33,887 nt of DNA from a virus. Shown in pieces: positions 1,106 to 30,742 of the stretch. The notes under the pieces were generated by a model. That model was not told where the DNA came from. It ran no database searches and saw only the letters and a program-made list of their open reading frames with translations. The position numbers and the translations under genes are program-made. Numbering within the stretch: the first letter of the stretch is position 1; each line of letters opens with the position of its first letter. Where the stretch lies: positions 1 through 33,887 of IMG/VR virus record IMGVR_UViG_3300020421_000079; one strand, given 5' to 3'.

Positions 1106-1378
1106 TTATTCCTCTTCGTTTTCAGTTTCGTTTCCAACAGCACCCATTGCTCCTGAAAACATCATTAAAGTTTTTGCAAAGATCGGATTAATGTCAGGTA
1201 TCTCCGTCTCGTTGCTCCGGAGGGAGTCCCTTGAAGTAGACTGACTCTTCTCCCTTGATTCGGTATCCAAGTCCGGCTCGTTCTTTTTCTCGTTCCCTGA
1301 TTTCCTCGATGGGTTGCCCTTTTGCATCTTGGAAGAATCTTGTTCGCTTGGTTTTGTTCTCTTTAGGTAATCGTTCAT
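1106..1378 (-). CDS. doubtful small gene overlapping the end of the giant gene
   Basis: The 90-codon frame from ATG 1378 overlaps the giant gene by 185 bases, and its overlapping part is low in complexity (Ser, Arg, Lys, Asn, Glu), as expected for a shadow of a Lys/Glu/Arg-rich frame. Only the last 28 codons lie beyond the giant stop. They contain INPIFAKTLMMFSGAMGAVG and an acidic end. A GGAG lies nine bases before an in-frame ATT at 1192, which would give a 28-residue protein. Its last codons form the ribosome binding site of the next gene. Confidence 0.25.
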   Translation of the reverse strand: MNDYLKRTKPSEQDSSKMQKGNPSRKSGNEKKNEPDLDTESREKSQSTSRDSLRSNETEIPDINPIFAKTLMMFSGAMGAVGNETENEEE

Positions 1379-4300
1379 TCTTCTCAGTATATTTAGGTTT
1401 CTTTATAAAGTCATCCACAAATATTTGTCGTGCGGACGCACTCATGGGGAATTGTCCGTTCTGCGCCATCTCGGTCAGGACATCGAATGAACTATGCCCA
1501 ACTGCCTCCTGCTTAATCATGTTCCATGTGACCCAATGCATTGAAAATGCAGAATCAATCCATGCGTATTGCGGATTCATTTTTGATACCTTTTGTGCCA
1601 ACTCACCGAAATAAAATTCAAGCGTTCTGTAGAGTGCGTGTTCAACCGGATTGTCTAAGGTGGAACCAATGGTCTTATAGAATCCTGAACGATCTTCAGG
1701 AGTCCCTGATTCATCGTATCGGTACGGACTGACTCCCCATTTGTTAAACTCTTTTGCCTGTTCCTTGGCTAATTTAATTTCTGCTTTGGTAGCACCTGAC
1801 TTGGGAGCCAAAATAGAATTTACTTTCTTTTGTCTATTTCTGACAGAGTCCTGAATTTGGTGTTCCCATACATTGACGAATTGCCATCTGTCCATGATCA
1901 CCACATTTGGATCTGCCATTAATGCTATTACAAAAGAGGTAACTTTATCCTTCACTCCTGCACCAAGGAATCCGGTTGCCCACATTTTTTCTCGAATGCC
2001 CTGCCCGTCTAAAGATTTATCGTTAAACAAATCAGTCAACTCAGCCCATCTGCCATTCCATTTAACAAGCATATCGTGAATTGCCTGAATATTCTGCTTG
2101 GCATTATTTCCTGCGACAACTTCGTTCTTCTGATCTTCAAACATATTGGCAACGATATCTACAAAAGTCCCTTTCTGACGATTGAGATTTCTGTCGTTTG
2201 CTTCCTTTGCAAATCCTGCTTTTCTTTCTTTGGAAAGTTTCGACATTTTCTTTTTAATGAAAGCATCTTTATTTTTAGCTTTCTTATAAGTCTGCATTTT
2301 CTTCCAACCATATCTCTCGTCACCAATTTTTTGGGCATCCCAAAAGGTTCCCTTGTCCATAGAATATTTCCCGTCTATGGAATCAAAGATTGCTTGCCAC
2401 ATTTGTTTGTTGTTAGTCAACCGCAACCATCCTGCCTCTTGGTTGTAGGGATCGAGCATACGGGACAGCAAACCCCATATAAATGCTTGCGAAACCATCT
2501 CCGGAGTTTTCTTCACATTGTACATTTGCTTGGCACTAGCGACTCCCTGTTTGGCTAAGTTTATCTGCTCGGGATTGTTTGCCATTGTCCTGTCCAACCA
2601 ATCGATTAGCAACTGAGGGTTGTTTACATAATCTAATAATTTTGTTGGGGGTGCAGGGATGTCAAAACTACCTACCCTATTAAGCCGGATTTGCGTAATC
2701 AAGGCATATGCTTCCGGTGTTGCATTGTTTGCCATTTGTCGCATCAAACCATCAGCAACCCTGTTGTCCTCAAAATAGGCATTCCATTTTCTTTCATCCC
2801 AATTAGCTGAATTTTTTGTAAGACTTTCCGTCTTGGGTATTACTCGATTTGGCAACTCAATTTTCTTTTGAGTATTCTCATACGATAGCATTGGAAATCC
2901 CATTGCTGTTTCCTTACTGAAAGTTTCAGTAGGTACAGAGGGCATGAACTGCAAAGAGTCCATGATAGGCAAATTAGCTACTTCCTCGTCCGTGAGATTT
3001 GTTCGAGAATCTGCGGTAAAGCTCTCGTGGCGAACTCTTCCCTTGTCTCGGTTTCTTGCATCTGCAAAGGCAAGTAGATTTTCAGGTCTCGCTTGTTTGA
3101 TTTTTTCAATCGAGATGGGGAAGTGTGGTGGAAGTATTTGTTCTGATTTGTCTTCATTTTTTGTTTCAATTTCTGTTCCGGTATTAATATCGTAAATGGA
3201 ATCCTGATCACCCCAAATTGCCATGCGTACTGCATCTAAATAATTCTCTACGGGAAATGCTACATCGAGCATGAATTGTGTATCGTCCTTTACCCATCCA
3301 CCAAGATGCGCACCTTCTTTTTTAAATCGATGTGCATGGTCTCGAATGTAAGACCACAATTCTGTCCGAGTCATTTCTTTGAGGGGAATTACAAACTCAG
3401 TTTCTTTTTCCGGAGCCACTACATACCCTGACTTAGCGTGTAGCTCATTAGATTGGTCTATAGTAAAGCCATAAGGGTTTGCCTTCATGTCTGCAATGAC
3501 TCGATCAAATTGCTGTGCTGTCTCATCCGTAAGAGCAACATACGGCATATAATTAACTTGTGATGTACTACTGAAAGTAAAGTTTTTTCTTTTTATTGCC
3601 GAATCTTCAGTAACAACTTTCGCTTGTTCATTTGGGTTTATTACAGCAAAAGTTTGTCCACCATATTCTGCACCAAGTCGAAAGGCATCAAATCCATAAT
3701 TCTCGTTTGCCCAAGTATTGAATGAATAATCGACTATGTTCATGTTGTACCCCATCTCACCCATGTCCATAGAATGCTCTAGCAAAATCCAATGTAAGTC
3801 ATTTGGATTATTTCCTTTAGTCGCAATTTCTACCATTGCATCTCCGTCCAAATATTTTCCATATTCAGTAGGATCACCATCAGCAATAACTCCGGTGTCA
3901 AAAAACACTTTATTTAAATCCATTTCAGGATTCTTATCTCTCCAATTTTCTCCTAAATAATTAGCAAGAAACTTTTTTATTCCGTTAAGTGGTGGAATGG
4001 TGTTAGGCATATTTTTTACAAAATCAATTCTTGAGTAATTAGCCATCCCAACTTCGAACTTTCCACCAACTCTCGAGTAATGCTCGTTCTCATAAAATAA
4101 CCTCAAAGCTTTTTTCAAAGTAAAGCCTCGTTCGTTGGCATAAAGTTTTGCATATTTTGGTAGTTGGTTCCACCAATCTTTTATCAAGTTCCTGTGATCC
4201 TGCTTCGATGAATCCCAAAGTTTTCCTTTCAAGACAAAAGTTGAAACTTCGGTTCCTCGATCTATTGCACTACTCACTCCATAACCGGATTTTCTTTGGG

Positions 4301-7300
4301 TGAAAAACCCTCGCAAAGAACCATACCTTTTAGTTTGCGAATCATCGTTGGGATCATCTAAGCGAAATGCCCCACGATCACTCATTTCTTTCGAATGGTA
4401 ATGTACAAATTCAATAGGAGAAACATTTCCTGCAAGATCAATTTCCTCACCAATAATTTCACCCTTGTGCCAATCTTTGAAAAATTTACTTTGATATCCT
4501 TTTTCCTGCCACTCCAAATCTGCTTCAACAATAATATTTGAGTCGGCATCTAATCCACCTTTAACTCCGGCAACAAAAGCATTACCCACTTGACCATCAT
4601 TGTGTTCTACTTCCGGCATGAAATTCAATTCACCATTTACTCGTTTTAAATGACTTGTTGCATTTAAAGCTTTATCGTTCCACAATGCACCGGATGTTAT
4701 ATCCCACCCCGTCAACCATTTTGGACGAGACTCACCAAAGCTTTCGAGGTTTACCTCAACACCTGAATAATCCTCCGCAACTTTCTTCCAATCAATTACT
4801 CCGTTACCATATATAGGAGAAAGATCATTAAAAAAATCTTTGCTTACTAAGTATTTATTTTCAAAATCCGTTATGGTATTTTTATTTACCTGAGCAATTT
4901 CGCTTGTGTTCAAATTTAACTTATGGGCTTGCTTTCCTATAATTCCAAAATGATTTCGATCAATAAACTGCATCCACCCATCACCCCTAGCAAACCATAA
5001 CCCGTAAGGCTTATTAGCGACTCCTCTTTCCTCAAATTCTTCTATAGGAGCTTGCTCCTGATTTATACTATTAATAACTTCATGCCTACCCACATGAATT
5101 GGTTCATTTTTATACCTCGAAGCAATCTTGTTTGCGAACTCAGAATCACCTTGAAGAAGTTGTGTTTCACCATAGGAATAGATATCAATATGTTGATACC
5201 CTTCAGGCATAAAGAATAATTTTTTGCCTAAAGTTTTTTGAACAAACTTCGGTCTGTCAGAAAAAGGTTTTAATGAAACTTTTGCATCAGTCGCGCGAGC
5301 AATGGTGTTGGCAATTATTGCTCTTTTGAGAGTAGATTCACCAACTCCTTGAAAAATTAATTCTTTATGGTTTCTAAAAAATGAACGAAAACCATCGGTG
5401 TTGGGATTCCGCTTGTCTGAGGCAAACCAAGGATGTTGCACACCATCTCCACCAATAACATAATCTAAGCCCAATGAGTTTCCTCTATCTTTTCTGTACT
5501 CTGTAAAAATAAACTTTCCTGAATCAAAGTCATATCGAAATGCATCAAGTTGATTAAACCAACCTTCCTCAAATATTGATTCATCTCGGTTTTTTAAAAC
5601 CACATCTTCTTTTTTGAAACCAATATCTTTCCAATCACTATGTTGCATTCTGTAGCGAACTAATCGTAATTCTTGCCGAGCATATGCTGTGACCTTTCGA
5701 ATAAATCCGTCACTTGGCACATCATCATTAGCAAACTTTATTCTTCCATACCCTTCTTCGAATGGAACATTATCTAATACATCAGTTGCAGAATCAATCC
5801 CCTCCATCATTTTTAAAAACTCAAAACGGGAAGGATCATTTTCGTAAAGTTCCTGAGCTACGGCATCAATAGTTCCACCTTCATATCCTTCAACTCCGGC
5901 AATTACCTGAACATCATCTCGACCCAAACCATTGTTAAATTGTTTGTCTGATCGCAAGTTTGCTGACCCTTTTCCGGTTTCTGTAATATGTGCATCCGTT
6001 TCAGATTTTAAAAGCTGAGAAAGTCGAGTTGAAATTGTTCTAAGTTGATTAACTTTTGTCAAAGAAGTGTGGACAACTTGCAGTCCTGCACCATCCGCAA
6101 AATCGTAAAGTGCTTGATAAATTGCCTTACCACTAAAATAGGAATTTGTAGAATTTCCACCATCATCTCCGGCAAGGTTACCTAATCGAGAAGTATCAAA
6201 TCCAATAATTTTGTCTTTTGTATCAATTTCTAAAGTTAATTCTTTAAAATCTTTTCTGTCACGAAGTCTTTGATCTGAAAATGTGATATTAAAACTAATA
6301 CTATCAGTATAGTATTGTGGGCTTGTATCCTGAAATCCAATTTCCAAGTCATCGTATTTTGCTAAATTATTTCTTAGCATACTTTCCAATTCCTCGATGA
6401 GTGCTTCTGTATATTCTGCACGATCATCCATTTCGAGGTCAGGCATATCCATTGAAAGCGTTTGCTTTTTATGGGCAAATATTTCAGGGTTCTGTCTTGT
6501 TGCACCAACCAAAAAAGTTCCAAGTCTGTCAATCTTTCCAAGTTGTGACTCAACAGGATTTAATGCAAAATCCATCAAACTTTCATTAAGTCTTAAATTT
6601 TCCTCGTCTCGATAGTAATCAGAATCCGGATCACGAATTAATAAGTCTAATTCTTCATCAGTATATTTATTATATTCTTCCGGCAAAGTTACAAAAGTGC
6701 TTCCTGTTTGACTCAAAGAATATCTTTTTGCACGAGGTGGAATTGTAGAATTTTCAAAACCATTCTGAGCAATGCTTGGCATATAATTATGTTTCACATT
6801 TTTGTAATCATATGCGTATCCACTTTTCCCTTCACCGGACATTCCTGCAAGTGCTGACACATCATAGGATTTCAAGGCTTGCTTCATGGTGTTAGCTTCA
6901 GAAGAAAACCATTCATTTAATTCAGGGTTCTGAATTTTTACTCCTGAATCACGCATTCCAAATGCCATCGTAAATAATTCATTCTCTCCAAGTCCAAGAG
7001 GATTTATTCTGCCTTCTTTTCCGGACTCGGTTAAAACTGATTGTGCGTGTTCCGCAAAATCTTTTTTGAAATCTTCAACTTTCCTACCGCCAAGCAATCC
7101 GGCTGAGTTCATTATCTCAATATTATTTTCAACGACATCTGCGTCCCATCCCATGACTTTTAAATTAGGATATATCGTCCTGCCATGCCTCAATGAAAAC
7201 CTTGGTTTCTTAGGACTGATTTGCCATGCGTAAGGAGTGATCGATCTTTCGAAAAACGGATTGTAATCAGATGCCTTAAACCAATTTGCGGAACGATATC

Positions 7301-9719
7301 CAAACTGAAGCATTTCTCTATTGTTTATTGCCTCCTGAATAAAATCGATTACCTCCTTTACAGCAGAATTATATTTTCCTGCCCGTCCAAACATCTCACG
7401 AGTTTTCCAATGCAGTTGCCTACCTTCGTTACCCTTTCCTATACCGGTAAAGTCTCCGGCATTCTCTTCTTCAAAATTTAAGGTTTCAAGTAACTCATTA
7501 AACATTTGCTCATCTTGAATGTGGAAGTGTCTGCCCATTGCTTTATTAATTCCAATACCTCCGAACAATGAAGTGTATTTTTCATCAGATGTTTGCCCGT
7601 TAGATTTGTCCGGTGTATGCTTTCTTCCTGTATCAATATCATTGGCGCGATCTGCAAGATGCTGTTTTCTTTTCTGAACATAATTATCTAAAACTTTTTT
7701 GACTTCCGGAGATGCTGTCATTGCTTCCGAAATCATTGACTTTGCAGGGTTACCTGAATCCGGCTCAACGACTCCTAGTTTTGCAAGTCCGGTTTTCATA
7801 GCATCAATTAAAGTATGCCTGATGCCTTTATTCATCTTCTCAAAAGCGTTAGGCTCATATTGGTATGCCATCGACCATTGCTCTGCACCTAGTTCCTCTG
7901 AGAGCAGTTTAGCATCACCTCTACCTTTCCAATTACCATTCTCATCAAATCCTAATTTCTCTGCTTGTACCGGAGAAGTTGAACGAATTTTGTTAGCATA
8001 ATCTTTTGCAAAATTAAAAGCTTCTTCATTCACTTTGACGGAACCCATAAGTTTTCCTCCGTCATCAAAGTATTCAAATTCGTACCCGTCTTCCTGTTCG
8101 TAATTTGCTAGGATTTGTCTGCGAGACATTGGAGATGATCCAAGCATTTCTCGGAACGCATGGTGACCAAATTCATGCAGAAATAATCTAGCACCAATTT
8201 TACTACCTTCCTTTACTTGCTTGTCGTGTATAAAAACAGAACGAGACTTGGGATCATAAAATGCAGATGGTATTGCACCAAGTTTTGTACCTTCCGGAAT
8301 CTCAATTTTTGAATCTGAATTTTCTGATTCTAAAATAATTCTTGTTGCTTCCTGATCATCGACAAGTTCCATCCGAAAATTTCCAAGTCCGGCAAGTTCA
8401 TCTAATGTCGAAACTGCAATTTTAGATGTGTCATCCAATGCACCAAAAGCTTTTATTTGTTCAATATTATTTGCCTGTTTTTTCTTGGCTAAATAATTTT
8501 CCATCCCCTGCAAAGAACGATCAGACAAAGTGCCATCAGGATTTCTAGAATTTAAAGTTTTTCCTGCTCCTCTTTCTCCGGCTCCGGTTGCACTTATTCC
8601 TAGTCCAACTCCGGAACCCATACCTATACCCTGACCCGTTGCAACTCCCACTTCATATGCACCTTTACCCTTGGCTCCCTCAATGCCAATTTGCATTGCT
8701 CCTGCTCCTAGTCCGGCAACAAATGAATTGAATAAAATATCATAAGCTTGTGTGCCTTTCATGCTGTTCAGCATGGTTGCAGTTTTTCGTGTTTGCTTAC
8801 TTACTGCATCTGATGTGGCAAGACGATGTAGGAATCGTGCATGACTCGATGGCATTGCAAAAATCTTTGCAACCTCACCAACTTCCATTGCTAATTTTCC
8901 TGCCATCTTCGCTACAATATTAGTGGCAAGAAGTCCGGTCATTCCGGTTGAAATTGTTCCGGCAACTCCTGTTGCACCTCCAACTGCTCCGGCAACACCT
9001 AGTGCCTGTCCTGCTCCGTATACTTCACCTAGCTTATATTTCTTAGCTAATGATCTCGGATATCCGGCAATGTCACTTACACCCATTAGTCCTGCTCCTG
9101 TGCGAGACAATGCTTTACCTGAAAGTTCTGCTGATCCTTTTAATGCTGACCTAGTCGCTTTAGGTAAAAACTTTAAAGCACCAACTGATGGAATTAAATT
9201 TGTGGCATCAGTAAAGTCGGCTAAGAACGATAATTTATTTCCGTATTGAGATGTGCTTGCATCAATAAATTTTTCACGGGCATCATTGAAATAATTCATT
9301 TCATATTGATGACGATACCATGCTCTCTCACCCCGTTCCTCTTCTGACAATTCAGAGTTAAAATAATCTTTAACATTCCCTACTAGAACTTTGAAAGTGT
9401 TATAGGTATCTCTTGCTCCTAATTCTGCACTTCGTCCAATAGTTCCCCATGCATCTTCAAAGTCACCTTCCTTGTCACCTAAGCCGAGCATTCCCATTGT
9501 CAAACTTTTACCATTGAGAAACTCAGGAACTTCTTCCATCGCATAATCGTACAAACCGGATGCGAGACCGGATGCAAACTCCCATGTTGCTTCACCCCAT
9601 CCCATTTCCTGCTGTCGTTTTCGTTCAGCTAGAAATCTTTGCTTGTCGATGTCCTCCGGAGTTGGAGTTCCAATTCCAAAATTTGCGGTACTTTTTGTGT
9701 CAAATAAAAATTCTGCCAT
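1194..9719 (-). CDS. giant multi-domain ejection/polyvalent protein, 2841 aa
   Basis: One uninterrupted frame of 8.5 kb, the last and largest of three putative internal virion proteins. Residues 1-200 are charged. Two Gly/Ala-rich hydrophobic stretches (about 240-290 and 326-380) could insert in membranes. HEFGHH at 515-520 in RLFLHEFGHHAFRE is a zincin metallopeptidase site, with candidate third ligands at Glu608-Glu613. Residues about 1770-2035 start with HYHSKE and end with AFRLGAEYGGQTFAVINPNE, similar in layout to ADP-ribosyltransferase-like polyvalent domains. A domain near 2138-2175 (GAHLGGWVKDDTQFMLDVAF) also recalls phage polyvalent proteins. The last 550 residues are helical. Phe/Tyr-Met-Pro motifs occur at five places. 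An AGGA precedes the ATG. The functions are inferred from motifs. A lytic transglycosylase domain like that of T7 gp16 was not found. Confidence 0.8.
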   Translation of the reverse strand: MAEFLFDTKSTANFGIGTPTPEDIDKQRFLAERKRQQEMGWGEATWEFASGLASGLYDYAMEEVPEFLNGKSLTMGMLGLGDKEGDFEDAWGTIGRSAELGARDTYNTFKVLVGNVKDYFNSELSEEERGERAWYRHQYEMNYFNDAREKFIDASTSQYGNKLSFLADFTDATNLIPSVGALKFLPKATRSALKGSAELSGKALSRTGAGLMGVSDIAGYPRSLAKKYKLGEVYGAGQALGVAGAVGGATGVAGTISTGMTGLLATNIVAKMAGKLAMEVGEVAKIFAMPSSHARFLHRLATSDAVSKQTRKTATMLNSMKGTQAYDILFNSFVAGLGAGAMQIGIEGAKGKGAYEVGVATGQGIGMGSGVGLGISATGAGERGAGKTLNSRNPDGTLSDRSLQGMENYLAKKKQANNIEQIKAFGALDDTSKIAVSTLDELAGLGNFRMELVDDQEATRIILESENSDSKIEIPEGTKLGAIPSAFYDPKSRSVFIHDKQVKEGSKIGARLFLHEFGHHAFREMLGSSPMSRRQILANYEQEDGYEFEYFDDGGKLMGSVKVNEEAFNFAKDYANKIRSTSPVQAEKLGFDENGNWKGRGDAKLLSEELGAEQWSMAYQYEPNAFEKMNKGIRHTLIDAMKTGLAKLGVVEPDSGNPAKSMISEAMTASPEVKKVLDNYVQKRKQHLADRANDIDTGRKHTPDKSNGQTSDEKYTSLFGGIGINKAMGRHFHIQDEQMFNELLETLNFEEENAGDFTGIGKGNEGRQLHWKTREMFGRAGKYNSAVKEVIDFIQEAINNREMLQFGYRSANWFKASDYNPFFERSITPYAWQISPKKPRFSLRHGRTIYPNLKVMGWDADVVENNIEIMNSAGLLGGRKVEDFKKDFAEHAQSVLTESGKEGRINPLGLGENELFTMAFGMRDSGVKIQNPELNEWFSSEANTMKQALKSYDVSALAGMSGEGKSGYAYDYKNVKHNYMPSIAQNGFENSTIPPRAKRYSLSQTGSTFVTLPEEYNKYTDEELDLLIRDPDSDYYRDEENLRLNESLMDFALNPVESQLGKIDRLGTFLVGATRQNPEIFAHKKQTLSMDMPDLEMDDRAEYTEALIEELESMLRNNLAKYDDLEIGFQDTSPQYYTDSISFNITFSDQRLRDRKDFKELTLEIDTKDKIIGFDTSRLGNLAGDDGGNSTNSYFSGKAIYQALYDFADGAGLQVVHTSLTKVNQLRTISTRLSQLLKSETDAHITETGKGSANLRSDKQFNNGLGRDDVQVIAGVEGYEGGTIDAVAQELYENDPSRFEFLKMMEGIDSATDVLDNVPFEEGYGRIKFANDDVPSDGFIRKVTAYARQELRLVRYRMQHSDWKDIGFKKEDVVLKNRDESIFEEGWFNQLDAFRYDFDSGKFIFTEYRKDRGNSLGLDYVIGGDGVQHPWFASDKRNPNTDGFRSFFRNHKELIFQGVGESTLKRAIIANTIARATDAKVSLKPFSDRPKFVQKTLGKKLFFMPEGYQHIDIYSYGETQLLQGDSEFANKIASRYKNEPIHVGRHEVINSINQEQAPIEEFEERGVANKPYGLWFARGDGWMQFIDRNHFGIIGKQAHKLNLNTSEIAQVNKNTITDFENKYLVSKDFFNDLSPIYGNGVIDWKKVAEDYSGVEVNLESFGESRPKWLTGWDITSGALWNDKALNATSHLKRVNGELNFMPEVEHNDGQVGNAFVAGVKGGLDADSNIIVEADLEWQEKGYQSKFFKDWHKGEIIGEEIDLAGNVSPIEFVHYHSKEMSDRGAFRLDDPNDDSQTKRYGSLRGFFTQRKSGYGVSSAIDRGTEVSTFVLKGKLWDSSKQDHRNLIKDWWNQLPKYAKLYANERGFTLKKALRLFYENEHYSRVGGKFEVGMANYSRIDFVKNMPNTIPPLNGIKKFLANYLGENWRDKNPEMDLNKVFFDTGVIADGDPTEYGKYLDGDAMVEIATKGNNPNDLHWILLEHSMDMGEMGYNMNIVDYSFNTWANENYGFDAFRLGAEYGGQTFAVINPNEQAKVVTEDSAIKRKNFTFSSTSQVNYMPYVALTDETAQQFDRVIADMKANPYGFTIDQSNELHAKSGYVVAPEKETEFVIPLKEMTRTELWSYIRDHAHRFKKEGAHLGGWVKDDTQFMLDVAFPVENYLDAVRMAIWGDQDSIYDINTGTEIETKNEDKSEQILPPHFPISIEKIKQARPENLLAFADARNRDKGRVRHESFTADSRTNLTDEEVANLPIMDSLQFMPSVPTETFSKETAMGFPMLSYENTQKKIELPNRVIPKTESLTKNSANWDERKWNAYFEDNRVADGLMRQMANNATPEAYALITQIRLNRVGSFDIPAPPTKLLDYVNNPQLLIDWLDRTMANNPEQINLAKQGVASAKQMYNVKKTPEMVSQAFIWGLLSRMLDPYNQEAGWLRLTNNKQMWQAIFDSIDGKYSMDKGTFWDAQKIGDERYGWKKMQTYKKAKNKDAFIKKKMSKLSKERKAGFAKEANDRNLNRQKGTFVDIVANMFEDQKNEVVAGNNAKQNIQAIHDMLVKWNGRWAELTDLFNDKSLDGQGIREKMWATGFLGAGVKDKVTSFVIALMADPNVVIMDRWQFVNVWEHQIQDSVRNRQKKVNSILAPKSGATKAEIKLAKEQAKEFNKWGVSPYRYDESGTPEDRSGFYKTIGSTLDNPVEHALYRTLEFYFGELAQKVSKMNPQYAWIDSAFSMHWVTWNMIKQEAVGHSSFDVLTEMAQNGQFPMSASARQIFVDDFIKKPKYTEKNERLPKENKTKRTRFFQDAKGQPIEEIREREKERAGLGYRIKGEESVYFKGLPPEQRDGDT

Positions 9720-9732
9720 AGTAATATCCTAA

Positions 9733-12216
9733 TTAGAAGTTTCCAAAAGACATTCTCTTTTTCGAAAATTCAGTTTTTAAAAAATTATCTCTTTTATATT
9801 TTAATTTTTTAATAATTTCTTCACTAGCATTTAATTCTTTTTTAGACATCCCACTTTGCTCTGATTGGATGTTTGCAATTTGTTGATTAATTTCGTCTTC
9901 TCGCATATTACCAATGTCGTTCATAAAATCTATACTACCCACTAACCAACCTAATCCACCGGAAATAAAACCACTTCCTAATGTTAATCCAAACTTTTTT
10001 AGAAATGATTTTCCAAGCACCTTTCCTGCTTTATCAGTAACTTGTTTATTCAATCTTTTGGTAACTTCTTTTTTAAGTTTTTCGTTTCCTTTTGCACCAC
10101 CATATTTCTTGCCAATTTTTCTGCCATTTCGAGTGGTATCCTCGTCTACATCTATACCAACTTTTCTTGCTTCTTCCCGTAGTGTTTTCGGATCATCTAG
10201 TTTTTCAGATAACATGATATCATATTTCTGACGGGATGTTAAACTTGAATCCATGCTATTGAATTTTGCTCCATCTTTTCCGGTAATGTTATCTCGAATG
10301 TATTCATTGGTATTGATTCGATTTTGAGCAAATTTTCCTACGGACATTCCGGCAGAAGCAGATGAAATTGCAGTTAAACTCTGCTTAACAACTTTTCCAT
10401 CGTCATCCATCTCTGCATCCATAGAGTTTCTAGGCGAAGACTTGCGTTCATTAATCAATTCTTGTGTCGCAATTTCTTTTGGATTCTTTGGCATCATCAA
10501 TGTACTTGGCTCAGGCTCAGGTTCTTGTTTCCTGCGGTAATAGTCAGACCCATATCCGGCTTTTTCTTCCTCAATTGCTTTTACTTGTGCAAGTGCAATT
10601 CGATGTGCCTTTTCTAGTCCTACTCTTTCCGAAGGGTGGAAATCAACATCTTCTTTTAAAAATCTATCGAAATCTTTTTCGTTTGCGATTCGACCATCAA
10701 CAATTGCTTTAAATATCGCTCTAACATTTCTTTTTGAAACACTAGGATCAACCTTTCCTAGACTTTGTATTCCACCCTCCAAGAAATCTCCAAGTCCGGT
10801 TGCTTCGTCAATTTCTTTAAGGGTTAATCCTCCAAATTGACTTTGTATTTCTCTAATAATGTTAGGCACATATTGACGAGTTGCCGTATTAAATTCTTCT
10901 CTCTTTGCATCAACTAAATCACGCATTGCGATCAAGTCTTTATCGTTAACGCTTGCACCTCCAAAAATTACTTTGTCACCAACTTTATATTCTCTCCCAT
11001 CTTGCCCTGACAATTTGTGATACAATCCACCTTCTGCAACATCTTGAGCAGTTAAAATCTTTTCTTGTCCAATACGCTTATCCATCAATCGTTCAATTAA
11101 TGATGATAATCTTTGATCACCCTGCACTCTTTTGACATCACCTTCCGAAAGAACTCCTGCACCCTGTGCGAGTTTTGCCATTTTAATAAGAGTGATGTTT
11201 GCACCAATTGAATTTCGGACTTCGTACCGCACCGAACCATCTTCCATTGGTATCTCAAAAAGTGAACGATCAAGAATAGATTCGATTTCTTTGATGTCCT
11301 GCATTTGTCCTGCAAGTACTTGATACCCTTGAAACCCCTGTGACTTAAATGATGCATCAGCAATCTCCCGTATTTTTCCTGCCGGAGCAGTTACTGATTC
11401 CATTCTCTTCAGCAAGGCATCTTTCTGCGGTTGTGGTAAGTTTGGATTCTCCGCTATGACTTGGTTATAATATTCGTTCATTTGCGCAGGAGATGTAAAG
11501 TTTACTTGCTTTAATACATTACCATCAAATTCTGTTTTGCGCATATTTTCCATTAGCGTAGGCACAACCAAACCACTATGCATTCCCATACCCATGCTCT
11601 TGTTAGTGCTTAAAACTGCTCGTTGTGCGATTGCCACATCACTTTCTGAAGCACCTTCATCAACCATGTTTTGAATAAACTTTTGTCCGGCTCCCAAAAG
11701 GTTATTCTGATTCTCAGGATTCTTTTTATAATTAGTCGCAAATGTCAGATAAGAATTTGAAAGCTTTTGTGTCTTTACAAGTTCCTCATTTTTCTGATTT
11801 GTAAATTGTAAGGCTTTTAACTGCTCCTGACTTGTCTGCATTAATGCATTGTGTTTTTGCTCTGCACGAAGTTCAGTTTCCTTACGATTTGCTTCTTCCT
11901 TAAACTTATCAATTCCACCAACAGATTTTATGTATTGGTCTCGAATTTTATCTCGAAACTTTTCATCTGTTTTCATTTGCTGTAACTCAGCAGAACTTCC
12001 ACCACTCGCTAAAAACTTTTCCTCAAAATCAGGACTTGCCATATAGTCCTCAACTTTTTTGTCGTTGGCTTTTTTCTCAAAATAAGCGGAACCAATCTGA
12101 CCAATGGCATTGCCAATTTTCCCATACGCTTCACCCCATGCTCTTCCGGCATTTTGAAGTGATGAGAAGTCCTGCCTCTGCTGTTGAATTGGAGTAAAAT
12201 ATGGTGATGGTTTCAT
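9733..12216 (-). CDS. internal virion/ejection protein candidate, 827 aa
   Basis: Begins MKPSPYFTPIQQQRQDFSSL, followed by a helical stretch with Gly/Ala (YGKIGNAIGQIGSAYFEKKA). Most of the protein is helical and charged. The middle contains IKMAKLAQGAGVLSEGDVKR and DLIAMRDLVDAKREEFNTAT, a pattern I associate with podovirus internal virion proteins. Near the end a hydrophobic stretch (TLGSGFISGGLGWLVGSIDF) could enter a membrane, as expected for an ejectosome part. The gene lies directly between the 935- and 2841-residue proteins and is probably the second of three ejected proteins. No catalytic motif is seen. Confidence 0.7.
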   Translation of the reverse strand: MKPSPYFTPIQQQRQDFSSLQNAGRAWGEAYGKIGNAIGQIGSAYFEKKANDKKVEDYMASPDFEEKFLASGGSSAELQQMKTDEKFRDKIRDQYIKSVGGIDKFKEEANRKETELRAEQKHNALMQTSQEQLKALQFTNQKNEELVKTQKLSNSYLTFATNYKKNPENQNNLLGAGQKFIQNMVDEGASESDVAIAQRAVLSTNKSMGMGMHSGLVVPTLMENMRKTEFDGNVLKQVNFTSPAQMNEYYNQVIAENPNLPQPQKDALLKRMESVTAPAGKIREIADASFKSQGFQGYQVLAGQMQDIKEIESILDRSLFEIPMEDGSVRYEVRNSIGANITLIKMAKLAQGAGVLSEGDVKRVQGDQRLSSLIERLMDKRIGQEKILTAQDVAEGGLYHKLSGQDGREYKVGDKVIFGGASVNDKDLIAMRDLVDAKREEFNTATRQYVPNIIREIQSQFGGLTLKEIDEATGLGDFLEGGIQSLGKVDPSVSKRNVRAIFKAIVDGRIANEKDFDRFLKEDVDFHPSERVGLEKAHRIALAQVKAIEEEKAGYGSDYYRRKQEPEPEPSTLMMPKNPKEIATQELINERKSSPRNSMDAEMDDDGKVVKQSLTAISSASAGMSVGKFAQNRINTNEYIRDNITGKDGAKFNSMDSSLTSRQKYDIMLSEKLDDPKTLREEARKVGIDVDEDTTRNGRKIGKKYGGAKGNEKLKKEVTKRLNKQVTDKAGKVLGKSFLKKFGLTLGSGFISGGLGWLVGSIDFMNDIGNMREDEINQQIANIQSEQSGMSKKELNASEEIIKKLKYKRDNFLKTEFSKKRMSFGNF

Positions 12217-12219
12217 TGT

Positions 12220-15027
12220 TTAGCCTTTCTTAATTTTTGTATCCATCCATTTTTTGATTACCGATTTCAGCCTTGGTTTTGTTGAAATAAATTCTGCAAA
12301 CCTTTCGCCAAACTTCAGGTATAATTTGCGGAACCATGATGGTGCATCGGAGAATAAATAGGCACGGAATAATAACCATTGCGGATTTGTTTCTCCATAG
12401 ACTTCTCTTGCTACCCAACATCCCGGCTTTGGAATCATAGCACTACCAATTTTCCCAAAGGCACTTCCAATTGCACCATACATTCCGGCAATTCTTTGCT
12501 GATTAGACCCGTATATATTAGCATTAAAGTTATTCTGCCCTGCTGTTTGATCTGCCATAAACTGAGCGCCTTGAGCAGGATTATATAATTGTGGTGCTGA
12601 GTTTAATCCAACTGCACCATTACCATAGACCCCTTGTCCGGTTCCAACACTCGCTCCGGATGTTCGTCCGGTCACAGCAAGTAATCCATCGGCTGAAGTT
12701 GCTTGCTCTAACCCTACTCTACTTTGCAAAAATGCTCTATCCATTCCAAGACCCTGCATTGCCATTTGAGAATTATATTGATCAAGTGCTTGTTGATTTT
12801 GATAGTCTAATTGCAAGGCATTAAATAGCATTTGTTGGCGAGCAAGCTCAGATTGAGCATTTCCTGCCTGAGCTTGTTGCTCCATGTTTTTTAATTCAAG
12901 TTCTGCTCTTTGATTGGCTAAATCTCCTTGCATATTGGTTTGCATAATCCCAATATCTGCTTGTTGGTTTGCCATTGAAGCTTGAGACTCTCTTGCCCCA
13001 AGATTTTGTGTGGCACCTTGGTTTGCTAATTTTGCTTGCATATCAAGGTTTGCTTGTTGTATGTCCCTTCCCTGATTTGCCATCGATGCTTGCAGTTCTC
13101 TAGCTTGTTTCTGATCCTGCAATTGGTTGTATTGCTGATCATATCCAAATTTTCGATTATAATACGCATCTGAGAGTTGTGCGTTTTGCATGGAAGTTTG
13201 CGTTTGCCTTCCTGCCTCGTCCTGCCTAAAGGCACCTTCCTGTCCAAGCGCACCCTGAGCGTATTGTCTTCGCTCATTCAGCCTTTGCCTTCTAGCACCC
13301 TCGTTGGCATTTACCTCCCCTAATATCGCACTTAGGTCTCTTCCCCTGCCTCGTGCGGTTGAAGCAATTCTTGCGTCCTCTGTAACCCTTCGAGCCTCCC
13401 TATCTGACAGATTGCCTCCAAGTGCAAGAGCATCTACAGCATCTGCTGTAATCGCACTACGCAACCCTCCCATATCACCAAGTGCCGGAGCAATAGAACC
13501 CTGTGCTTGCTCGGTCATATCCTTTAAAGGAACATTCATATTGCCTTGCGATGCATCTGCAATAGTTGCTGTATTTTCAACTCCGGTATCTGCTCTCCCT
13601 GCTACAGCATCCGCAATTACACCCCTGCTATTAACTCTATTCAAACCCTGCGCTAATTGTCCTTGATTTGAATACATTTGTGAGGCTCCAAGTCCTCCCA
13701 TGCCGTTTCCTGCATTGATTGCTTGAGCTAAAGAATTTGCACCTTGCTGTGCTACGCTTTCATTATTTTGAACATTTTGCTGTCTAGCATCAAAGTCGCT
13801 CATCTCCTGATCAAACATTGCCTGAGCCTCTGCCTCGGAAATATAAGTTTCTCCATTTGCGATATCTTGCATATGGGTATTATATTTTGCAATTATAGCA
13901 TCCTGCTCTGCTTGCGGATCGTAAATTCCTTTTCCTGCATTCCGTAAATTTTCTTGGGCTTGCATTGCCGGATCGGTATAAACCGGAGGAGTGGTTGGTC
14001 TTGGGTTTCCGGTTGGCGAGGTAATTTGTGGAGTTTGAAATTGGCTTGCGAGTCCAAATAAAGATTTGTCTCCATATGATAATTTTTGATCATCACTAAA
14101 TGCAGATTTTTTTGCTAGGGTTTCTGTTTCATCGAGTGCCTTTTGAATGCTTCCCTTAACTTTCTCGCCAACTTTTTGCGCTCTTCCGGCATCTACATCT
14201 TCTTGAGTTGCGGTGAAATTTCCTCGGTACGCATCAGTTAATTCCTTACCAAAAGTTTTGGCTAAATCTGCCTCAGTATTAATTTGTTGTTTCTTTGCAA
14301 GCTCAAGCAAATCCTGCTCCATCTTAGATGTTCCTGCAAAACTGCCATCCTCATTAAATCCTGCTCTTCTTGTTGTTCCGTCACTAAATTGTTGCGGTTG
14401 TTTTCCTCCAAGAATATCTAAGGCTCCACCTTCACGGGTTGTCTTTCCTGCCATCTCCGGCTTGCGAATAACTTCACCATCAGCGTTTTTCTTGTAGATG
14501 GGTTTCAGATCACCTCCACCAAGTTCTTTTACTTTTGCAAATGCATCTTCCAAAGATGTTCCGGTAAACTTTGAAAACTTTCCATCTGAACCTTGCACCT
14601 CAATATCTTTTCCGGTGTCAATATCAATGATACGATATTGGTTAGCAGTAATTGTTGCAGGAGGGTTATAGGTATTCCAATTATAATTATTGGTAGTTTC
14701 TTGTCCATCCCCGTCTAAATATAATAGTCTTCCCCCTCCATCTGTTTTGTGCTTTTCGTATACTTGTGGAACAACTTGGTATCTACCACCCATTCCTCCA
14801 CTATATCCGGTTACTTGCCTACCTTCAGAATCGTATTCAATTGTTTCTCCTAACAAAGATTCTTCTATGATTTCTTGATCTAATCGAGCGTATGCTTTCC
14901 TACCATAATTAGGATCAGATTCAGCCTTGTAAAGTTGTGGTGCTAAATCAATTTGGGCTTGCAATGCATCACGCATTGATTCGCCATATTCATTTGAAAT
15001 ATATTGTGGTTCTGATCCTCCTCCCAT
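12220..15027 (-). CDS. internal virion protein candidate with CFI-box-like end, 935 aa
   Basis: Position between the fibre genes and two more giant proteins, size and composition suit a T7-type internal core protein ejected into the cell. Residues 1-300 are mixed. The central part is rich in Gln, Ala and Asn and has repeats such as QASMANQGRDIQQANLDMQ and ESQASMANQQADIGIMQ, forming long helices. The final 66 residues are different: GCWVAREVYGETNPQWLLFR from Cys870, then aromatic and basic residues (PSWFRKLYLKFGERFAEFI). This resembles the CFI-box C-terminal module of bacterial proteins (CFIATAAYG), with Trp-Val-Ala-Arg in place of Phe-Ile-Ala-Thr. A strong AGGAGG precedes the ATG, and three bases separate the stop from the next gene. 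Confidence 0.75.
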   Translation of the reverse strand: MGGGSEPQYISNEYGESMRDALQAQIDLAPQLYKAESDPNYGRKAYARLDQEIIEESLLGETIEYDSEGRQVTGYSGGMGGRYQVVPQVYEKHKTDGGGRLLYLDGDGQETTNNYNWNTYNPPATITANQYRIIDIDTGKDIEVQGSDGKFSKFTGTSLEDAFAKVKELGGGDLKPIYKKNADGEVIRKPEMAGKTTREGGALDILGGKQPQQFSDGTTRRAGFNEDGSFAGTSKMEQDLLELAKKQQINTEADLAKTFGKELTDAYRGNFTATQEDVDAGRAQKVGEKVKGSIQKALDETETLAKKSAFSDDQKLSYGDKSLFGLASQFQTPQITSPTGNPRPTTPPVYTDPAMQAQENLRNAGKGIYDPQAEQDAIIAKYNTHMQDIANGETYISEAEAQAMFDQEMSDFDARQQNVQNNESVAQQGANSLAQAINAGNGMGGLGASQMYSNQGQLAQGLNRVNSRGVIADAVAGRADTGVENTATIADASQGNMNVPLKDMTEQAQGSIAPALGDMGGLRSAITADAVDALALGGNLSDREARRVTEDARIASTARGRGRDLSAILGEVNANEGARRQRLNERRQYAQGALGQEGAFRQDEAGRQTQTSMQNAQLSDAYYNRKFGYDQQYNQLQDQKQARELQASMANQGRDIQQANLDMQAKLANQGATQNLGARESQASMANQQADIGIMQTNMQGDLANQRAELELKNMEQQAQAGNAQSELARQQMLFNALQLDYQNQQALDQYNSQMAMQGLGMDRAFLQSRVGLEQATSADGLLAVTGRTSGASVGTGQGVYGNGAVGLNSAPQLYNPAQGAQFMADQTAGQNNFNANIYGSNQQRIAGMYGAIGSAFGKIGSAMIPKPGCWVAREVYGETNPQWLLFRAYLFSDAPSWFRKLYLKFGERFAEFISTKPRLKSVIKKWMDTKIKKG

Positions 15028-17363: not shown

Positions 17364-17612
17364 TTATTTGTTAAGATCGAATTGTAAATTGAATGAGGAT
17401 TCATCTCCGTACTCCTCACGAATAGTTTGCATGGCATTATCATCTGCGTACTCCAAATCGTTCCATGAGGTGAAACCATCTCCAATCTTTAGCCGATTTG
17501 GTTGTCCTGTTGCGGTAATTTCGAAACCAATTTCACCTTGGTGCAGAGCAGGATTAGTTGTTTCCCAAGCGAGAGTTTCATCCCTACGCATCTGCATTCT
17601 ACGAATAGTCAT
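17364..17612 (-). CDS. fibre-base/tropism-determinant N-terminal-like domain, 82 aa
   Basis: The pattern IRRMQMRRDETLAWETTNPA, then LHQGEIGFEI and RLKIGDGFTSWNDLEY is the standard form of the small domain at the N-terminus of many phage fibre and tropism-determinant proteins. Here it stands alone as one gene and not fused to a fibre. Such domains join the fibre to the virion. The tail (DDNAMQTIREEYGDESSFNL) is acidic. It is coupled to the previous gene by an ATGA overlap, and the next fibre gene starts 8 bases later. Confidence 0.75.
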   Translation of the reverse strand: MTIRRMQMRRDETLAWETTNPALHQGEIGFEITATGQPNRLKIGDGFTSWNDLEYADDNAMQTIREEYGDESSFNLQFDLNK

Positions 17613-20436: not shown

Positions 20437-20847
20437 TTAGTCCATTGAGATGGTAAATCCACCAACCGGAATTTTAAAGATATCCCCTTGGTCAATTTGA
20501 CTAGGTGTATTTAAAGCACCATAAGCCAATAACTGACCTCCCGTAGATGCGTTAAATAATCCGGCATGAGTAATTGTCCCCCATGAAGCATCTGCTGATG
20601 GAAACTGAGCATCTGAGTTTGTGCTAATTGCTCCGGAAGTTACTGATCCAAAACTTGCTTGCATTCTTGTGTATCCACTTCCGTTAAGTTCAGTGCCTCC
20701 TCCGGCATCAGTGGGTGCTTGAGTAAATAACCCTATAAATGCTCCACTTCCGGCACTACCTGCTTGACCATTACCAAAATTGGCAGTTCCTGCGGTTGAA
20801 AGAGCAGTTAACACTCTCGATTCTAAATCATCTGTAGCTTGTGACAT
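20437..20847 (-). CDS. phage tail-fibre-type domain protein, 136 aa
   Basis: A strong AGGAGG precedes the ATG. The body contains the recurring phage pattern FIGLFTQAPTDAGGGTELNG, then GYTRMQASFG, a segment WGTITHAGLFNASTGG and a last strand GDIFKIPVGGFTISMD. Such small beta domains are found as separate proteins or as parts of tail fibres in many phages. A virion-surface or fibre-base role is likely. The N-terminal helix (MSQATDDLESRVLTALST) may attach it. It follows the adaptor gene and the stop is four bases before the putative TTG of the lipoprotein gene. Confidence 0.7.
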   Translation of the reverse strand: MSQATDDLESRVLTALSTAGTANFGNGQAGSAGSGAFIGLFTQAPTDAGGGTELNGSGYTRMQASFGSVTSGAISTNSDAQFPSADASWGTITHAGLFNASTGGQLLAYGALNTPSQIDQGDIFKIPVGGFTISMD

Positions 20848-20879: not shown

Positions 20880-23108
20880 TTATAAATTTTCGATAGTTAC
20901 ACTATCTAAGTCTAAAATTTGATATGCTTTACTTAGAGCAACCCCCAAACTTCCTGCCACTTGTGCAGGTTGATTTTTATCAGTATTTACTTCCGGAAGA
21001 AATCCCATTGCAACATGAACTTTGTTTGAGTTTGCAATGGTATTAATTGTGATATCTATTTGATTTGTTTGATTACTACCCGTTGAATTATATTGAGGGT
21101 AAAGTTTATATATAGTTCCACCCCAATACGCTTTTGTTTGAGTGAATTGACTATATTGCGGTGCATAGGGTAGTGGCTCAAAATTTGTATATTGCCCTCC
21201 TCCACCATTTGTAGTTTCCGTTACCCCAAAAATACTCTGCCTGTGATGATCACTAAAGCTTATAATTGGAATAGGATAACCATTTGGAGTCATGGTATTA
21301 TTTTCCGGAGTTTGATAAAAGGGAGTTAACGATTGCCCATTTAATTCAACAGAGGCATTTATACCACCTCGCATATCAATTGTGTTTAGCAAAAATAGAG
21401 TTATTGGATAGTTTCCAATATAAATTTCAGTACCACTTCCATTTTGCATCGATGTGCTTGCACTAGTCATAAATGGAGTCTGATTTGCTGATAGCGGATC
21501 ATCGTTAGCTAACATACTTCCGTGCGATCCAAGACTTTCAAATTTCATAGTGATTCTATGATCACCAAGTCCAAGCTGAGTATTTGTGTCGGTTAAATCA
21601 ATTGCACGACTTCTACCAAGAGCAAAATATCTGCCACTTGTACTAGTTTTGCTGTTAAACCATTCTTGCTTTCGTTGCTCGATAAATACGGGCATCTCGT
21701 ATTGAGCCTGAACACTAAGACCCATATTTATATTCACTCTGTTTGCAAATAGTCTTTCGACTATTACGGGTGCAACATTTAATCCAAAACTTGAATCTGC
21801 CTCGTTCGAATAAACATAATTTCCAAATGGTGGTGCAACGGAAATTGTAATTGAAATTGGGTCAACACTACTTGCTTGCCCTGCATCAAAACCACTCAAT
21901 TGAACATCAATGGTTGATGTAATTACTTCTACAGATTTTGTTTTTAGTGCCTCACTATTAATTGCAGGGACTCTTAAATTTGAATGACAAGTTGTAGTTC
22001 CGTATTTCCTGCGAGGGTCTAATATATCCTGAGCTTCAATTTCAGTTTCTAAGGAAAAATATAAATCTAAAGTCGATTTAACATATGGGTTTCTTCCCTG
22101 AACTAAGCTACTTAGTTTAAATGTTAAATCACTTTCTGCCTCAACCAATCTTCCAATCAGGTGAGGTGTTGGCTCAGTAATCTGCGATTGGCGAGCATTA
22201 ATTAATTCACTCGAATTTGGGGAGATTGAAAATGGTTTATTTTTGTTTGCCTGAAGATCAATTTTATCGGTTTCTCTTACTAGCAAGTCTAAAATTTTAA
22301 GCTCTTGTAACCCTGCTTTTTCGTGCTGACCTTCTCCCACTAACCAACTCTGATACGCATGAGCCTTTATTGCTTGTGCCAAGAATCTTGGAATTGAACT
22401 ATCTGTAGATGTCGGTGTAAATGTTGGTGCTTCAATTTTGTACACCATCCAAATTTCATTCACCACAGAGTCAATTGCCTCGAGGTAAACTCCTTCTCTA
22501 CCCTCTCGAAAATTTAAATGTTTAGTATTAGAATAGCGAGGGTCATTAGTGTAACAACCCAAACAATTTCCAATAGTATTGTAACCATATTGCTCATAAG
22601 GAATGTACCTTTCAAAAAATGTGTCAACCTCCTGAAAATAGGTTGTATTCGTTACCTCGATTCCATCAGTTAAGAAATTTGTTTTTCCAAGTGGAGACAA
22701 CGCAATGCAGACATAACTTTTATCATTATGACTAACCCTTGCCCCAATGCCATATAAACCATCCTCACTCCAAGGTGAGTCTTCAGTTCTGTCTCCAATC
22801 TCATACCAATCTAAAAGTTCTGATGGTTCAGTATTGCTGTTCCCATCTCCATGCATTCGGTAAAATTTTCCGGCATGATAAACTTCACTACCTAACTGAT
22901 AAGGAGTTGAGCTTGACCAAACATCTCTAAAATACCTTTTTTCAGTTATTGTAAATTCACCCCAAGGGTAATAGTCCCAACAATAATTTACCGCATCGTT
23001 TATATACTCTGCCAATATGCTCTTTTCATGAGCAAGAACATTGTCAGGATCGATTCCGGCAATGGAGGCAACACCTCGTTCGATTGCCGAATATGTGGTT
23101 GTTCTCAT
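20880..23108 (-). CDS. head-tail adaptor with receptor-binding-like extension, 742 aa
   Basis: The N-terminal 60 residues (MRTTTYSAIERGVASIAGID, then helices with YINDAVNYCWDYYPW) match a pattern common in podovirus adaptor proteins that sit under the portal, like gp11 of T7. Residues 64-132 contain two repeats with identical spacing of W, Y, G, V, Y, similar to the small carbohydrate-binding module of chitinases (CBM5/12). Helical adaptor sequence continues to about residue 300. The last 400 residues are beta-rich, with Ser, Thr, Asn and Gly, and look like an added surface or fibre domain, giving about three times the usual adaptor length. The ATG overlaps the previous stop by four bases. 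Roles of the C-terminal half are inferred. Confidence 0.7.
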   Translation of the reverse strand: MRTTTYSAIERGVASIAGIDPDNVLAHEKSILAEYINDAVNYCWDYYPWGEFTITEKRYFRDVWSSSTPYQLGSEVYHAGKFYRMHGDGNSNTEPSELLDWYEIGDRTEDSPWSEDGLYGIGARVSHNDKSYVCIALSPLGKTNFLTDGIEVTNTTYFQEVDTFFERYIPYEQYGYNTIGNCLGCYTNDPRYSNTKHLNFREGREGVYLEAIDSVVNEIWMVYKIEAPTFTPTSTDSSIPRFLAQAIKAHAYQSWLVGEGQHEKAGLQELKILDLLVRETDKIDLQANKNKPFSISPNSSELINARQSQITEPTPHLIGRLVEAESDLTFKLSSLVQGRNPYVKSTLDLYFSLETEIEAQDILDPRRKYGTTTCHSNLRVPAINSEALKTKSVEVITSTIDVQLSGFDAGQASSVDPISITISVAPPFGNYVYSNEADSSFGLNVAPVIVERLFANRVNINMGLSVQAQYEMPVFIEQRKQEWFNSKTSTSGRYFALGRSRAIDLTDTNTQLGLGDHRITMKFESLGSHGSMLANDDPLSANQTPFMTSASTSMQNGSGTEIYIGNYPITLFLLNTIDMRGGINASVELNGQSLTPFYQTPENNTMTPNGYPIPIISFSDHHRQSIFGVTETTNGGGGQYTNFEPLPYAPQYSQFTQTKAYWGGTIYKLYPQYNSTGSNQTNQIDITINTIANSNKVHVAMGFLPEVNTDKNQPAQVAGSLGVALSKAYQILDLDSVTIENL

Positions 23109-23440: not shown

Positions 23441-23469
23441 TAACTAACTAACTAAGCAAATTAACTAAG
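23441..23469 (-). other. cluster of stop codons after the capsid gene
   Basis: Immediately after the capsid stop, the minus strand reads TTAGTTAGTTAGTTA, placing TAG in each of the three frames. Together with the capsid TAA it blocks readthrough in every frame before the next gene. Confidence 0.6.
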
Positions 23470-24513
23470 AGTGTATTTACCATGATCAAGTCCACCGGAG
23501 TAAGACTTCATGGCAAATACCGACTCAACCAAACTTCTTGCACCTCCACCGAGATCAGGAAGCTCACGGACATTCGTTTCTTCTGCAAAAGCTACTTCAA
23601 GTTGGCTCATGTTCAAAATGAACAATGTGTTCTGCCCAACAGAAGCATCATAAGCACCGGAACCATCCCGTGCATCCTGCTCCAAGAAGCTCGATAGGTT
23701 CAAGGTTATCACGCCAAAATCCGTGTCGATGATATCAATGGAAGTAGCAAGCCTACCTTCATCAGTATCACGATTAGACATCACAATGTTATTTGTTCGT
23801 GGAGTGAACAAAGTGAACTCAGAGATAGTCTTCTTTACTCCGGTTCCGCAAAGACCAAAAAAGGACTTATCGGACTCTCCGGTTTGCTCGTAAATAGACT
23901 GAAGAATACCACGCAAATCTTCTTCTTTCGCACTTGCTGTAGCAGATGATGCAATTGAATCAGATGGAGTTAAGAAATCAGTTGGAACAGGCAAGGTGCC
24001 TTGTGCTGAACTTGTGATCCATTTTCCCAATCCACGAGTTTGATAAGGCGCTGAAGAAGTTTCCTGATTGGTCTCTTGAGAAGAACAAAGAGTACTTTCT
24101 ATATCGCGCTTATGTGCCACTAAACTTTTCGCAATCGAATTTGCCATTTCCTTCTTGAAGCCGACTCCGGCAATATCAGAAGTCATGTTAGCAAGACGAG
24201 AAACTTTTGGAAATCTACGAGCGTACTGAACATACACTTGGCACTTCGCCCTATCATCGTAATTTTCAAAATCCGAAGAAGTAGTATCAACTCCATCTTG
24301 TGGAATCGCATCAGAAACTCCGCTTGTGTAAGTTGCTCCGGCAACGATATTGGTTTTATGCTTATCAACACCCCACTCTAAAAGTGAATTCTTTGGTGCT
24401 GATCCTTTTTTTACCTGACTTAAAAATGGTGTACTCTTTTTATCAATAACTACCAAGAGGTCTGCTAATGATTCCCGTTTAAGTGATTGGTCTCTTTCAA
24501 CTATTCCTGCCAT
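23461..24513 (-). CDS. major capsid protein (DUF5309/SU10-like), 350 aa
   Basis: The shell protein, presumably HK97-fold. The first 60 residues match the form seen in the DUF5309/SU10 capsid group: a helix, then KKSTPFLSQVKKG (26-38) and a strand before EWGVDK. A segment with NYDDRAKCQVYVQYARRFPK (about 84-103) corresponds to the family's central strand region. The end (SYSGGLDHGKYTL) is also usual. Length is normal. A very strong ribosome binding site (GGGAGGG) precedes the ATG, as expected for the most abundant virion protein. The gene follows the scaffold candidate, and its stop is followed by repeated TAG codons in all frames. The family name is from memory of patterns, the capsid role also from gene order. 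Confidence 0.85.
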   Translation of the reverse strand: MAGIVERDQSLKRESLADLLVVIDKKSTPFLSQVKKGSAPKNSLLEWGVDKHKTNIVAGATYTSGVSDAIPQDGVDTTSSDFENYDDRAKCQVYVQYARRFPKVSRLANMTSDIAGVGFKKEMANSIAKSLVAHKRDIESTLCSSQETNQETSSAPYQTRGLGKWITSSAQGTLPVPTDFLTPSDSIASSATASAKEEDLRGILQSIYEQTGESDKSFFGLCGTGVKKTISEFTLFTPRTNNIVMSNRDTDEGRLATSIDIIDTDFGVITLNLSSFLEQDARDGSGAYDASVGQNTLFILNMSQLEVAFAEETNVRELPDLGGGARSLVESVFAMKSYSGGLDHGKYTLS

Positions 24514-25590: not shown

Positions 25591-25842
25591 CTAAATTTGC
25601 CTATACCACACTTTACGAGTTAGTTGCTTGTGGTTCTCGTTCCAAGATGATCCACGATGCATTTCGAGACTTCCATTCTCTAATCCCTTACGGATTAATT
25701 TGTGACATCGTGCATGACCTACTCCGGCATTTTCTTGAAATTCTATTGCCGTAAACCAACCTTCTCCCTCCGGTTCATTTCCTTGCTTTCCGGATAAAGT
25801 TTGTAAAGTTTTTGCCCAATTTATGTTTTTTGGTTTTGCCAT
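25591..25842 (-). CDS. winged-helix-like small protein, 83 aa
   Basis: A GGGGA element precedes the ATG at good distance, inside the end of the phosphoesterase gene. The core GWFTAIEFQENAGVGHARCH followed by KLIRKGLENGSLEMHRG has the form of a winged helix: helix, turn, recognition helix, then a wing ending in KVWYRQI. Small proteins like this are common in phages and plasmids and are presumed to bind DNA. The target is unknown. Its location just before the scaffold and capsid genes would suit a local regulator, but that is inference. Confidence 0.6.
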   Translation of the reverse strand: MAKPKNINWAKTLQTLSGKQGNEPEGEGWFTAIEFQENAGVGHARCHKLIRKGLENGSLEMHRGSSWNENHKQLTRKVWYRQI

Positions 25843-26546: not shown

Positions 26547-26695
26547 CACTCCTCAATGACGATAATGTTTCCTATCAATTCAAATTTTAAAGTTTCTAGG
26601 ACTCCGACACATTGACGAATGGTAAGTCCTTTTTCTAAAAATTCGTTTACTTTTTCACCTAGTTGGTCTTGTAACTCATCTTCCCATTCTTCCAT
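26546..26695 (-). CDS. acidic protein, 49 aa, coupled to phosphoesterase
   Basis: The frame begins MEEWEDELQDQLGEKV and continues as helix to a hydrophobic end (LIGNIIVIEE). An AGAGGA element stands about eight bases before the ATG, inside the end of the previous gene, which it overlaps by 37 bases. Its TGA shares a base with the ATG of the phosphoesterase gene (TGATG). The good ribosome binding site and exact coupling argue for translation. No family is recognised. Because of the coupling it might act together with the phosphoesterase. Confidence 0.6.
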   Translation of the reverse strand: MEEWEDELQDQLGEKVNEFLEKGLTIRQCVGVLETLKFELIGNIIVIEE

Positions 26696-30710: not shown

Positions 30711-30742
30711 TTAACCGCTAAGTCCTAGGAGTTATCGGTTAA
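30711..30742. repeat. 32-base near-perfect palindrome over the terL stop codon
   Basis: The two 16-base arms match at 14 positions (left arm TTAACCGCTAAGTCCT, right arm AGGAGTTATCGGTTAA). The centre is TCCTAGGA. The terL TAA lies inside the right arm. There is no run of T residues after it in the reading direction, so it does not look like a standard intrinsic terminator. A binding site for a dimeric protein or an mRNA-end hairpin are the main options. Confidence 0.6.

Follow-up and report, generated by a model that had tools for sequence, protein, structure and literature searches.

Three described systems come closest to the subject of this report, the 2841-residue product of a giant open reading frame (ORF), P0001, in a 33,887-base IMG/VR virus record (IMGVR_UViG_3300020421_000079; the whole of this stretch is termed the window). 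The first is represented by the polyvalent proteins of phages and conjugative elements (Iyer et al. 2017, PMC5512222), with which the giant protein shares its size and multi-region build, its place in a late phage block, a HExxH region and an ART-like H-Y-D residue order, as well as modules akin to solo phage proteins and domain mosaicism. Processing by zincins has been predicted for polyvalent proteins since 2017, with no cutting site named in the parts of that source consulted, which also report that DdrB of phage P1 is cut before packaging. The second is the N4-type virion RNA polymerase (vRNAP; PMC12633501), which is likewise giant, contains a HExxH domain and is delivered with two other ejection proteins; it comprises some 3,500 residues, while in the giant protein no RNA polymerase region was recognised, with no direct comparison of the two having been made. 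In polymorphic toxins (Zhang et al. 2012, PMC3482391), the third, stand-alone modules are similarly swapped into a carrier, often together with self-processing peptidases; however, their cassettes are C-terminal, whereas the giant protein has an internal slot and belongs to a phage late block, and no toxin domain or immunity gene is shown for it.

The closest kind is plausibly that of the polyvalent proteins, with a mode of working that may be like that of cassette-swapping polymorphic toxins. Unlike the polyvalent proteins, the giant protein matches no defined polyvalent domain profile and lacks the Asp located three residues after HEXXH in the polyvalent phage-type set, as this set is given in the accessible portion of PMC5512222. 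The tripeptide connector and the motif-bounded slot are features of the giant protein which the same portion does not describe for polyvalent proteins, and a literature search, which is not proof of absence, found no repeated inter-domain motif in such proteins. On balance, we regard it as probable that the giant protein is a polyvalent-type, virion-delivered multi-effector with a zincin-like region, connector-joined modules and a motif-bounded exchange slot, a reading that is based on the excess of the connector tripeptide, the slot pattern, the relatives among phage protein families, the invariant zincin residues, the three-gene block to which the gene belongs and the zincin processing that had been predicted for polyvalent proteins.

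Connector motif and exchange slot

Five [FY]MP tripeptides, all within the C-terminal two-thirds of the giant protein, are found at residues 979, 1503, 1700, 2057 and 2258 (HNYMPS, LFFMPE, LNFMPE, VNYMPY and LQFMPS), their consensus being hydrophobic-x-[F/Y]-M-P with a hydrophobic residue usual two positions before F/Y. Composition predicts 0.25 copies, and none of 20,000 shuffled sequences reached five, the maximum being four; these shuffle figures are post hoc, the motif having been spotted after reading of the sequence, and it is the exchange slot which provides independent support. No other window ORF of at least 100 codons contains the tripeptide. The codons of the motif differ among copies and among orthologs, thereby indicating that conservation acts on the peptide and not on the DNA, and at four of the five places the 20 residues before the motif are less conserved than average, as expected of linkers.

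Full-length orthologs are encoded on three IMG/VR contigs, L001 and L003 (2673 amino acids, aa) and L002 (2913 aa), with overall identities to the window protein of 54%, 54% and 50%, respectively, and the comparison set is therefore one of four sequences, among which L001 and L003 are near-identical over much of the chain. The dominant difference in the four-protein alignment is a slot between motif copies 2 and 3. In L001 and L003 this slot is empty, the sequence reading ...LGQGLFFMPEPSWSAG..., with exactly one motif copy remaining and the join located at the motif. The window protein reads ...LGKKLFFMPE, followed by its cassette and then by GELNFMPEVEHN..., while L002 reads ...DDSLFFLPE, followed by another cassette and then by SQIHFMPEPSWSAG...; no similarity was detectable between the two cassettes. 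The slot flanks of L001 and L002 are 68% identical in the 60 residues to the left and 90% in the 60 to the right, and as the flanks are otherwise this close the slot change between these two proteins is comparatively recent.

The window cassette matches phrog_8582 (E 5e-4), with GLW and WD..SG.W positions in common, and represents the same domain family as Mycobacterium phage Wanda gp198 and Gordonia phage Kudefre gp8; the phrog_8582 relatives examined, from actinophages and environmental phage contigs, are separate short genes (150-180 aa), whereas the window cassette is a module inside a 2841-aa chain. The L002 cassette matches phrog_4700 (2.4e-5), and its start, RIYHGS, appears to resemble strand 1 of the ART domains of phages. 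A module that is present, absent or different between two motif copies suggests an interchangeable effector slot. The [FY]MP connectors and this slot together constitute the strongest evidence of modularity; they were missed by a preliminary description of the window, whose claim of several domain-like segments is nevertheless borne out, as two of these have phage relatives outside the ortholog group (phrog_8582 and Rhodococcus phage E3 gp68). The motif-bounded slot is also more informative than what the preliminary description had noted: a short repeated protein-level motif bordering a natural exchange slot represents a concrete candidate cutting site, and it could help to delimit modules in those giant phage proteins which domain libraries leave unrecognised.

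Zincin-type region, probable delivery and competing explanations

HExxH occurs once in the giant protein against 0.06 copies expected by composition, and the preliminary description had placed both the ORF, which is on the minus strand, and its HEFGHH motif exactly. Two motifs, HE[FH]GHH and, farther downstream, LLSEE[LI]GAEQWS, are invariant in all four proteins, the orthologs reading HEHGHH, and each of the four combines HEXXH with a downstream segment (SEE..AE) that may supply the Glu ligand of a zincin. None of the four genomes was matched by the Pfam family MPTase-PolyVal (PF18818), even with the threshold set at E <= 10. The order of elements given by AlphaFold fits a zincin, but confidence around the active helix is low and there was no significant fold match. 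It is likely that a zincin-type site is present, on a predicted and not a proven fold.

The gene lies on the strand and in the block of the terminase, portal and head genes, as is characteristic of polyvalent proteins, which are encoded with virion and packaging genes. The internal-virion-like gene is followed by two smaller genes and then consecutively by the 935-, 827- and 2841-aa genes, the latter three forming the end of the structural genes in an order that is kept in the orthologs. Judging from this gene order, it is probable that virions contain the giant protein together with its two neighbours and that it is delivered into the host along with the DNA. None of the three proteins had a PHROG match at E < 0.01, nor was similarity to T7-type gp14/15/16 found at that threshold, and the T7-like ejection proteins of the preliminary description accordingly stand as regards gene order and not as regards sequence. 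Its membrane-like stretches correspond to two Gly/Ala-rich hydrophobic segments (residues 239-257 and 328-346) with modest Kyte-Doolittle means of 1.3-1.5, which are not clear transmembrane helices; residues 1-430 are presumed to be the packaging/ejection part.

We envisage one chain in which this N-terminal part is combined with a region resembling zincin metallopeptidases and with successive modules of effector-like type, the regions being joined by a recurring peptide connector. The alignment shows that unrelated small modules akin to other phage proteins are plugged into, or missing from, the slot between two connectors. An effector role of the modules would follow from their kinship with solo phage genes and from the ART-like signature. 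The connector would most likely be a place of cutting or of holding apart, such that the modules could act separately after entry, and our guess is that the zincin in cis would be the first candidate protease at the connector, either before packaging or after entry. The stronger claim, in which the in-cis zincin recognises [FY]MP and the giant protein is an injected self-cutting polyprotein with a plug-and-play slot, such that a free-standing phage module would be delivered and set free once the tripeptide flanks it, is rather unlikely on present evidence.

Several observations weigh against the polyvalent-type reading. The other three proteins have AMP at motif 4, and one L002 motif copy is FLP; a single varying slot is seen among four sequences, and two further indels among the orthologs, of 54 and 70-72 aa, lie away from the motif. 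The giant protein is not matched by any of the Pfam profiles for zincins, ARTs or LPDs, the N4 vRNAP with its HExxH domain is packaged unprocessed according to PMC5512222, and the two AlphaFold models obtained are both poor, their mean pLDDT (predicted local distance difference test) being 31 and 36 and neither having a significant match in the PDB. Scattered matches of these models to a bacterial zincin (E 1-4) are meaningless at such low confidence and were discarded. The polyvalent-like character that had been proposed is sustained by several unrelated domains and by the virion-gene block and not by Pfam profiles, and the proposed delivered multi-effector retains gene order, a conserved zincin-type site and phage-related modules in its favour, with the polyvalent class not shown by profiles.

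It is possible, although we consider it doubtful, that the protein is modular and delivered but never cut at [FY]MP, which would instead represent a strand cap or a peptide used for docking, either of a chaperone or in tail threading, with the zincin acting on host proteins or being a relic. The unprocessed N4 vRNAP is in keeping with an uncut connector, as is phage C75C1 (L024, OQ984151), a distant relative by its capsid protein. Its CDS0001 (38751..7576 across the record start) is a giant ORF of 2769 aa in which a different peptide, [LAMIV]P[DE][FV]x[VI], of the type Y-x-L-P-[DE]-F-x-V, occurs 11 times where shuffling predicts 0.04 copies; it has no HExxH, indicating that such repeats need no zincin, and by analogy folding or threading may be what repeated peptides in giant proteins of phages are for. 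An uncut connector alone, however, leaves unexplained a zincin-type region that is kept in four of four orthologs. Less likely still is an ordinary podovirus structural or ejection protein with neutral decoration as its variable parts and an incidental HExxH. Its position as last in the structural block behind two other large proteins and its Gly/Ala-rich hydrophobic N-terminal segments would suit such a protein, and the capsid-related phages HTVC106P and VA-RY-3 end this block with proteins of ordinary size (927 and 691 aa), neither of which shows detectable similarity to the giant protein; yet plain decoration would not be expected to place unrelated modules with kin among separate phage genes in one slot, or to conserve HExxH together with an invariant SEE..AE segment. 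That the motif ATG serves as an internal translation start, from which modules are also made separately, is highly improbable, for although in each [FY]MP or AMP copy a proline codon comes directly after an ATG, there is no consistent ribosome-binding site (best anti-Shine-Dalgarno match 0-5 bases, at scattered distances), Met is preceded by a conserved residue and succeeded by a conserved Pro, and the FLP copy of L002 has a CTA codon.

Other modules, search scope and neighbouring genes

Within the region between motifs 3 and 4, the invariant residues listed in Table 1 follow the ART H-Y-D order, which in polyvalent proteins (PMC5512222) comprises His on strand 1, Tyr on strand 2 and Asp on strand 5; this is a motif reading only, for which neither profile nor structure support was obtained in residues 1703-2056. 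Residues 2060-2257 are related to Rhodococcus phage E3 gp68 (tblastn 0.01, hhalign 92%), while matches of the same residues to MuF in Acinetobacter phages (E 0.8-4) were not trusted. A C-terminal HhH-GPD DNA glycosylase, plausible by eye, was rejected as PF00730 gave no match and comparison with E. coli Nth, by hhalign and by Smith-Waterman, scored within the range of shuffles.

Further scans of viral contigs, whether based on the alignment or on individual regions, brought up no contigs other than the three that encode the orthologs, and a DNA-pattern search of viral contigs for HEFGHHA revealed no further giant protein. No homolog was found at E < 0.01 among named phages, in 50,697 phage records, nor in scans of approximately 85,000 species genomes; the compared proteins of phages related by head protein show no similarity to the giant protein, and no Pfam family matches it or its pieces. 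Between the window head protein and its counterparts in such phages as C75C1, HTVC106P and VA-RY-3 the identity is 24-28%, which indicates a podovirus-like phage far from isolated phages. The large genes of the window are all on the minus strand.

Table 1. Features of the giant protein and of its genomic surroundings in the window
Feature	Residues	Position	Strand	Basis or remark
Giant ORF P0001		1194..9719	-	2841 aa; ATG start; AGGA four bases upstream
N-terminal region	1-430	8430..9719	-	Two Gly/Ala-rich hydrophobic stretches; hydropathy
Zincin-type region	420-720	7560..8462	-	Invariant motifs in 4 orthologs
HEFGHH motif	515-520	8160..8177	-	Read from sequence
LLSEELGAEQW, candidate third metal ligand (E608/E609/E613)	605-615	7875..7907	-	Invariant; putative ligand role
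Region	720-978	6786..7562	-	66-68% identity in orthologs; no relative found
Connector motif 1, YMP	979-981	6777..6785	-	
Region	982-1502	5214..6776	-	No relative found
Indel, 54 aa extra in window	1247-1300	~5820-5981	-	Alignment
Connector motif 2, FMP	1503-1505	5205..5213	-	Left slot edge
Slot cassette, 194 aa	1506-1699	4623..5204	-	Related to stand-alone family phrog_8582
Connector motif 3, FMP	1700-1702	4614..4622	-	Right slot edge
Region	1703-2056	3552..4613	-	Invariant H1773/H1775, Y1799, D2011
Connector motif 4, YMP	2057-2059	3543..3551	-	
Region	2060-2257	2949..3542	-	Common to Rhodococcus phage E3 gp68
Connector motif 5, FMP	2258-2260	2940..2948	-	
C-terminal region	2261-2841	1194..2939	-	66% identity in orthologs; no relative found
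Indel, 70-72 aa extra in other orthologs	after 2480	~2280	-	Alignment
827-aa neighbour, conserved partner		9733..12216	-	36% identity to L001 ortholog
935-aa neighbour, partly conserved partner		12220..15027	-	Local similarity to ortholog
Internal-virion-like protein, 498 aa		18291-19787	-	Partial match to phrog_511 'internal virion protein', E 1.6e-4
Head protein		20437-20847	-	phrog_240 7e-25
Major head protein		23461-24513	-	phrog_1328 1e-27
Portal		26960-29110	-	8e-5
Terminase large subunit		30739-32382	-	phrog_2 3.9e-17

Four further minus-strand genes of the window were assigned. A calcineurin-like metallophosphoesterase (25821-26549; PF00149 1.3e-8, phrog_221) is encoded between the portal and head genes, and a 742-aa protein of the structural block (20880-23108) has a match to a small carbohydrate-binding module (PF02839 2.3e-6). 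An 82-aa ORF (17364-17612), which has matches to N-terminal portions of numerous tail fibre and tail assembly PHROGs, represents a stand-alone fibre-attachment domain, while a putative PDDEXK phage endonuclease is encoded at 33016-33498 (PF24579 3.5e-6).

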